Assembly (NCBI GenBank): GCA_003050565.1
Contig: PEBW01000006.1
Span: forward strand, 1 to 64,000
Origin: Brockia lithotrophica
GTDB lineage: Bacteria > Bacillota > Bacilli > Thermicanales > DSM-22653
DNA length: 64,000 nucleotides
Reading direction: 5' to 3'
Shown one piece after another: positions 5,159 to 26,492 of this stretch; within the stretch, counting starts at the first letter, position 1, and each line of letters begins with the position of its first letter. The notes below the pieces were generated by a model, which had not been told where the DNA came from, ran no database searches, and worked only from the letters and a program-made list of their open reading frames with translations. A program made the position numbers and the translations under genes.

Positions 5159-6655
<1,497 letters not shown>

Positions 6656-6725
6656 TCATCCCCCGCCACGGTCCGTTCCCGTCGAGCACCCCGGCGGGAA
6701 GTCTCATCGGCGCCCACCTTCCCTC

Positions 6726-6755
6726 TTGACAAGCGTCCCTCCTTTTTTGTATAAC
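6726..6755 (+). promoter_or_regulatory. Consensus sigma-A promoter facing right, not in front of any CDS
   Basis: TTGACA (6726-6731), 18 nt, TATAAC (6750-6755) on the plus strand. The only thing downstream before a strong plus-strand terminator is a ~200-bp non-coding interval, so it probably drives the RNA listed next. Confidence 0.65.
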
Positions 6756-6761
6756 AGACTC

Positions 6762-6968
6762 AACCTTTGCTACTACAGTCAGACAAACGCGATAGGCGCG
6801 CGCGAAGAGGGCCACCACGGGGATTGCGGGAAGCCCGCTGCCTCTGGGTTGCGCGAGAGAAGCCCTGCCCTTTGGTGACCTTCCTCGGGCGCGCCGGCGC
6901 CCATGGGTACCACCTTCACCCATCTCCACCTACCGCCCAGTCCGGGGAACCCCGCTGGGCATTTTTTT
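6762..6968 (+). ncRNA. Candidate structured small RNA (unassigned, possibly 6S-like)
   Basis: About 205 nt lie between a near-consensus promoter and an intrinsic terminator, both on the plus strand, while flanking genes run the other way. The transcript can fold as a long rod. GGCGCGC (6796-6802) pairs with GCGCGCC (6889-6895). The segment at 6805-6818 pairs with about 6872-6885 over 14 positions with two mismatches and a G-U. Inner hairpins GCGGG-AAG-CCCGC (6826-6838) and GGGTT...AAGCCC follow. The size and rod shape recall 6S RNA, but I cannot match conserved 6S bases. SRP RNA, tmRNA and RNase P motifs are absent. No credible small ORF is seen. Confidence 0.45.
6935..6968 (+). terminator. 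Intrinsic terminator of the candidate small RNA
   Basis: GCCCAG (6935-6940) and CGGGG (6943-6947) pair with CCCCG (6950-6954) and CTGGGC (6955-6960), with a 2-nt bulge, followed by seven T residues on the plus strand. It lies two bases beyond the convergent kdpD stop codon. Confidence 0.8.
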
Positions 6969-6970
6969 GG

Positions 6971-8158
6971 CTACGGAGCTTCGCGTTCGCGTTCTTCCTC
7001 GGGAACGTCGGCGACGATGAGCACGTCCACGTACTTCGTCTTGCGCAGGATGTGCGTGGCAATCGATCCGAAGAGGATCTCCTTGAGACGCGAGCGCGAG
7101 CTCTCTCCTAGGATCACTTGCGTCACCCCGTGCTTTTTGACGAAGTCGACGATGACGTCTACGGGTTTTTTTCCCAAGCTGTATTCCACGTAAAATTTCG
7201 CGCCGAGGTCTTTGGCGATTTCCTCGATCTTTCGGAGTTTGCGCCTCTCCTCTTCCGCACGGCGACGGTTCGAGCGGGTGATCACGTGAAGGACGAGGAG
7301 GTCGCCCTTAAGCCGCTTGGCCACGCGCCAACCGCGGCGGATGAGGCGCTCGGCGTTCTTGTCGTTGTCCACCGCCACGAGAATTCGGTGGCATACAGGG
7401 GCGTGCTCTTCGTCCCCTTCTTCCCCGGTACGCCCCGTGAGCTGTTCCAAGCGCTCGTCGACGTCGTCGGCCAGTTCCCGCAAGGCGAGTTCGCGGAGGA
7501 TCGTGAGGTTTTCCGGGCGGAAGTAATTTCGCAGGGCTTGCTCGATCTTCCGCGGATCGGGGTACACCTGGCCCGCCTTGAGGCGTTCGATGAGCTTTTC
7601 CGGCGAGATGTCGACGATTTGTACCTCGTTGGCGACGTCGAGGATCCAGTCGGGAACGCGTTCGTTTACGGTAACGCCCGTAAGTTCCTCAACCGTGTTG
7701 TGCAGGCTCTCCAGGTGTTGGATGTTCATCGTCGTGAGGACGCTGATCCCCGCCTCGAGGATTTCGAGCACGTCCTCGTAGCGCTTGCGGTTCTTGCTCC
7801 CGGGGACGTTCGTGTGGGCGAGCTCGTCGACGACGACGAATTGCGGCCGCCGGCGAAGTACCCCTTCCACGTCCAGCTCGTAGAAGGTACGTCCTTTGTA
7901 TTCGATCGGCTTCAAGGGAAGTACGGGAAGGTTGCCGATCGCTTCCTCCGTCCCCTTGCGACCGTGGGTTTCCACGATGCCGACGACGATGTCGATCCCC
8001 TGACGGAGCATCTCGTTGGCCTCTCGGAGCATGGCCACCGTCTTTCCTACCCCGGGGGCGGCACCGAGAAAGATCTTCAGGTAGCCCCGGTTGCTCCTTT
8101 GAATTTCCTCGAGGATTTCCTGGGGCGAACGGCGCCGACCTCCGCTCTCGAACCCCAT
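6971..8158 (-). CDS. kdpD: Truncated KdpD: N-terminal KdpD domain plus USP domain, no histidine kinase
   Basis: A 395-aa protein covering only the cytoplasmic N-terminal half of the potassium sensor KdpD. The KdpD domain has the P-loop GAAPGVGKT at 32-40 and DELAHTN at 111-117. A universal-stress (USP) domain occupies about 257-385. The four membrane spans, GAF and histidine-kinase domains of full KdpD (about 900 aa) are absent, and no kdpE regulator is adjacent. Comparable short KdpD proteins occur in some cyanobacteria and Firmicutes. The USP domain of Staphylococcus KdpD binds c-di-AMP, so a post-translational or ligand-dependent role in Kdp control is plausible. The ATG at 8158 has a G-rich Shine-Dalgarno sequence. 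It is the last gene of the kdp operon, 238 bp after kdpC with a hairpin between. Confidence 0.85.
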   Translation of the reverse strand: MGFESGGRRRSPQEILEEIQRSNRGYLKIFLGAAPGVGKTVAMLREANEMLRQGIDIVVGIVETHGRKGTEEAIGNLPVLPLKPIEYKGRTFYELDVEGVLRRRPQFVVVDELAHTNVPGSKNRKRYEDVLEILEAGISVLTTMNIQHLESLHNTVEELTGVTVNERVPDWILDVANEVQIVDISPEKLIERLKAGQVYPDPRKIEQALRNYFRPENLTILRELALRELADDVDERLEQLTGRTGEEGDEEHAPVCHRILVAVDNDKNAERLIRRGWRVAKRLKGDLLVLHVITRSNRRRAEEERRKLRKIEEIAKDLGAKFYVEYSLGKKPVDVIVDFVKKHGVTQVILGESSRSRLKEILFGSIATHILRKTKYVDVLIVADVPEEEREREAP

Positions 8159-26390: not shown

Positions 26391-26492
26391 AAACCTTCCT
26401 CCCATGCGGAGTAATTTCTCCACCTACCCGCCGATCCTCTCACGAATCCACTCCAGAAAGCGAGGGTACCCATCGAGGTACACCGCCACCCG

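Follow-up and report, generated by a model that had tools for sequence, protein, structure and literature searches.

The window, i.e. the whole stretch of 64,000 nt analysed here, is DNA of the thermophilic, hydrogen-consuming bacterium Brockia lithotrophica and carries, between two metabolic operons with gdhA and a short kdpD gene, an interval with its own promoter and terminator. The following features were assigned:

5159-6535, minus strand: gdhA (Glu/Leu/Phe/Val dehydrogenase), divergent neighbour upstream of the RNA
6726-6755, plus strand: sigma-A type promoter with TTGACA (6726-6731), an 18-nt spacer and TATAAC (6750-6755), kept in the sister species G001
6762-6968, plus strand: predicted non-coding RNA gene of about 207 nt, its start placed 7 nt past the -10 box by inference
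6762-6788, plus strand: 5' tail AACCUUUGCUACUACAGUCAGACAAAC, 27 nt, weakly structured, 100% conserved
6789-6900, plus strand: rod, a long imperfect hairpin with 1x1 mismatches at regular spacing
6789-6817 with 6873-6900, plus strand: lower rod, conserved
6818-6872, plus strand: rod tip, variable with indels
6903-6923, plus strand: 6-bp hairpin AUGGGU-ACCACCUUC-ACCCAU with a C-rich loop at 6909-6917
6908-6922, plus strand: candidate seed in the hairpin
6924-6934, plus strand: C-rich linker CUCCACCUACC, predicted unpaired
6935-6968, plus strand: intrinsic terminator, stem at 6935-6960 followed by A and seven U, 100% conserved
6971-8158, minus strand: short KdpD (KdpD sensor plus Usp domain), convergent neighbour downstream of the RNA

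As described in the initial annotation, the TTGACA-18-TATAAC promoter and the seven-T terminator are both located on the plus strand, and the two neighbouring genes run on the opposite strand. The terminator serves the plus strand only. With at most one mismatch allowed, 12 near-consensus promoters were counted in 542 kb of the Brockia genome; a terminator 90-340 nt downstream was found for one of them, namely that at 6726-6755. Promoters of this quality were absent from 20 first-order random 64-kb sequences with the same dinucleotide make-up. The stock promoter scan demands T at the final position of the -10 box, hence the TATAAC promoter escaped it.

In the sister species the gene is kept at the same genomic place and in the same convergent arrangement with kdpD. 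Two blocks are identical between both species. One spans 52 nt (6741-6792), beginning halfway through the promoter spacer and ending at the rod base; the other comprises the final 95 nt of the RNA (6874-6968). The rod tip differs by several indels. For the neighbouring genes, except for gdhA, where an apparent frameshift in G001 makes the value too high, the divergence at fourfold sites was 28-34%, about 30% overall. Conservation of the RNA gene in this relative is thus far above that expected from the local neutral rate, and the combination of identical blocks with a variable rod tip argues against a recently copied segment. The gdhA gene of G001 (L121:5371-6748, minus strand) aligns in two frames; the apparent frameshift lies near codon 175 and is either real or an assembly error.

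Protein-coding sequence was considered for both strands. The antisense open reading frame at 6585-6923 was rejected, as its frame is interrupted by stops in G001, and on the plus strand the longer frames that cover the conserved 3' part continue through the terminator. Since the identity also reaches through synonymous positions, and in view of the antisense stops, coding does not explain the conservation. The identical blocks include the predicted unpaired positions of tail, loop and linker, which suits sequence-specific pairing.

Folding of the RNA gave -88.1 kcal/mol (z -2.2) for B. lithotrophica (G000) and -76.2 kcal/mol (z -3.0) for the copy in G001. For both copies the same succession of tail, rod, small hairpin, linker and terminator was predicted. 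The interval had been described at first as folding into a long rod with inner hairpins. Such a rod is present at 6789-6900, but it does not comprise the whole RNA, as the 27-nt tail lies before it, and the hairpin, the C-rich linker and the terminator follow. In its conserved part small mismatches, mostly 1x1, occur in both species. Where rod pairs could be aligned between G000 and G001, three differ but still pair, two of them by a change from GU to AU and one from AU to GC, and one further pair is lost; the two-sided change from AU to GC is found at 6817/6873, and this covariation rests on two sequences, too few for a strong test. Loop (6909-6917) and linker (6924-6934) were predicted to be unpaired at 37 and 65 °C; for the 5' tail the prediction was weak structure at 37 °C and an open conformation at 65 °C. 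With conserved blocks, a common fold and no reading frame to explain them, it is near certain that 6762-6968 represents a genuine non-coding RNA gene.

A covariance-model search with Rfam, as proposed in the initial annotation, matched no family at gathering thresholds, 6S RNA included; permissive thresholds yielded a single weak hit, to BSR0739 (RF02613), with 24.9 bits compared to a gathering score of 191 bits. BSR0739 is a Brucella sRNA, and the likeness lies mostly in GC-rich helices and the terminator, so that a chance match driven by composition is most likely. Bacterial SRP RNA and RNase P RNA are also highly structured stable RNAs, the former rod-shaped, but their covariance models had no match at this locus. 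Matches were found elsewhere in the genome, for SRP RNA at C4:13093-13169 (partial, below the family cut-off) and for RNase P RNA at C2:324064-324439.

Furthermore, no homologues were found in plasmids and phages. A comparison of the 94-nt 3' block with 399 genomes of the phylum yielded three short matches besides the own locus; the best of them, 38 nt long, resembles coding sequence and fits chance. A search of the family and of a class sample with the covariance model R1 gave matches in G000 and G001 only. These results suggest an RNA that is new, uncatalogued and restricted to one genus. The claim of a stand-alone unit for an uncatalogued structured RNA could hence be maintained, with promoter and terminator confirmed and conserved in G001.

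Regarding the function, we cautiously favour a trans-acting regulatory sRNA, distinct from 6S RNA, which would work by base-pairing with mRNAs. Of the readings originally offered, that of a new regulatory RNA is the one which survives. Own promoter and terminator, non-coding character and a conserved C-rich loop and linker predicted to be unpaired are all features of this class and were found here. Against a trans-acting role stands the occurrence of the RNA in two species only. Comparable genes are known from Bacillus subtilis and Staphylococcus: RoxS/RsaE, FsrA and CsfG are likewise stand-alone sRNA genes of Firmicutes and contain C-rich regions. The C-rich loop and linker of the Brockia RNA recall those of RoxS and FsrA, two sRNAs which use such regions to act on mRNA targets (PMC8216469). 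In contrast to these sRNAs, the Brockia RNA combines a 5' tail with a long GC-rich rod, is confined to a single genus and is not related to them by any Rfam match, where a family exists. Moreover, its C-rich parts have no general preference for Shine-Dalgarno sequences beyond that given by composition.

Anatomy, conservation and the shared predicted fold were observed in both genomes; from these we infer how transcription, pairing and the direction of regulation might look. Judging from the sequence, sigma-A RNA polymerase would transcribe the RNA from the strong promoter and stop at its own terminator. The most likely role of the GC-rich rod is to stabilise the RNA at the high growth temperature and to separate two pairing surfaces, the 5' tail on one side and the C-rich hairpin loop with the linker on the 3' side. 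Through the 3' surface the RNA could pair with a few mRNAs at purine-rich Shine-Dalgarno regions and thereby block their translation.

One candidate target was identified for the hairpin:

G000:C2:287267-287488 = L217:1501-1722, minus strand: gene of a 74-aa protein

The protein has 67-74 aa and the motif LAWQKQVIGEEF, is present in five of five family genomes and could not be assigned to Pfam or NCBIfam; a Spo0E-like gene adjoins its gene. The segment UACCACCUUCACCCA of the RNA would cover the ribosome-binding site, with 14 contiguous pairs predicted at the Shine-Dalgarno sequence in G000 and 15 in G001, including one GU. The predicted pairing energies of -30.9 and -31.9 kcal/mol were the best of 154 ortholog pairs, followed by -23.9 kcal/mol, in a ranking that covers sampled stretches (these 154 pairs) and genome-wide pattern searches. 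Shuffled hairpins never reached the score of this site in 38,500 trials, and shuffles retaining parts of the anti-Shine-Dalgarno core did so in 0 and 1 of 38,250. By chance, about 0.04 conserved sites of such strength are expected in 1,600 genes; correction for the three tested surfaces raises this to about 0.1, for a site that was picked because it matched. Pairing with this mRNA needs the 6-bp hairpin to be opened. In G002-G004, which do not have the RNA, the orthologs of the gene possess equally strong Shine-Dalgarno sequences, but only -12.6 to -15.1 kcal/mol were predicted with the hairpin. Related genera thus retain the target gene without the RNA and without the complementarity. The site is a good lead and suggestive; that the 74-aa gene is a real target seems possible, though somewhat less likely than not. 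If it holds, the pair would illustrate the joint origin of an sRNA confined to one genus and of the site it targets. With this, a well-delimited, uncatalogued putative sRNA gene and one explicit candidate target are added to a deep-branching thermophilic lineage of the Bacilli.

Other targets were examined as well. Complementarity of the C-rich parts to the Shine-Dalgarno sequences of 382 start regions was not above that of shuffles with the same composition, and genome-wide seed counts did not exceed the reversed-pattern control. For the linker seed GGTRGGTGGRG no excess over the control was detected; among the matches compared, a single pair of orthologous sites lay outside the RNA gene, and no start codon was found downstream of it. 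An exact 11-nt complement of the linker (GGTAGGTGGAG) is located at 26418-26428 on the minus strand, close upstream of a gene that resembles those of nucleotide-sugar dehydrogenases. The only exact GGTAGGTGGAG site in G001 is that in the RNA gene itself. The neighbouring gdhA was rejected as a target, as its complementarity of 9 bp ranks ninth among the 154 gene pairs and is no better than many others. For the 5' tail, veg was considered and rejected as not significant, with about 3.9 such sites expected. The veg homologue (L203:2355-2720, minus strand) has two tandem near-perfect promoters upstream, TTGACA-17-TATAAT and TTGACA-17-TATACT.

The missing general complementarity to Shine-Dalgarno sequences would also fit an RNA that binds a protein or serves as a scaffold (e.g. 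for RNA polymerase, the ribosome or an RNA chaperone), with rod and 3' domain being functional and no pairing with mRNAs. The long regular rod with its conserved 1x1 mismatches points in this direction, and so does the 95-nt 3' domain, whose full identity, terminator included, exceeds the needs of a seed alone. However, the rod tip is free to vary in sequence and length, known RNP families gave no match, and the single strong conserved mRNA match would have to be a coincidence. We consider this function somewhat unlikely.

In the relatives the place of the RNA is taken by a protein gene. Judged by KdpD, the closest named relatives are Hydrogenibacillus and Ca. Carbobacillus. Their gap between kdpD and gdhA contains a gene for a protein of 104-116 aa on the same strand as the RNA; this gene has a TTGA-type/TATAAC promoter and a terminator of its own:

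L031:5248-5562, minus strand: gap protein gene, product ending in ...PYYG
L032:5180-5530, minus strand: gap protein gene, product ending in ...PYYG
L034:5208-5651, minus strand: gap protein gene, product ending in ...PYYG

No Pfam or NCBIfam family was found for the gap protein. Two paralogues are present in the family genomes G002-G004, and this genus has only a distant one (C1:226831-227112). It is conceivable, though rather doubtful, that the structured RNA replaced the small protein gene at this locus and acquired a dedicated mRNA target via loop-to-Shine-Dalgarno pairing. If true, a young riboregulator and its co-evolving target would both be traceable.

The convergent arrangement, which is found with the RNA in G001 and with the protein gene in Hydrogenibacillus and Carbobacillus, could also indicate a cis-acting antisense unit controlling read-through of the kdp operon. 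The stop codon of kdpD is located 3 nt beyond the last U of the RNA, no kdp terminator was seen on the minus strand in a search by eye only, and read-through transcripts of kdp would be complementary to the RNA over its full length. Full-length pairing, however, needs no identity between species, and yet the unpaired parts are fully identical; such a cis-acting unit is therefore distinctly improbable.

A relic or artefact, i.e. a promoter and a terminator remaining from the small protein gene known from the relatives, with no functional RNA, would be compatible with the position and the promoter type of that gene. It is very improbable, because 100% identity over 95 nt at 30% fourfold divergence has a chance of about 1e-15, and the identical blocks beside a variable rod tip speak against it as well.

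The possibility raised initially of a divergent 6S RNA, or of a second 6S paralogue sequestering sigma-A RNA polymerase, is the least probable of all, since length, rod-like fold and stand-alone gene are shared with 6S RNA (RF00013), but the large conserved central bubble is lacking, the 6S model gave no match at the locus even at E up to 10, and the strongest conservation lies outside the rod tip, in tail, lower rod, hairpin, linker and terminator. Two 6S RNAs occur in some of the Bacilli compared. In both G000 and G001 a canonical 6S gene was found elsewhere, that of B. lithotrophica at C5:110758-110944 with 56.4 bits.
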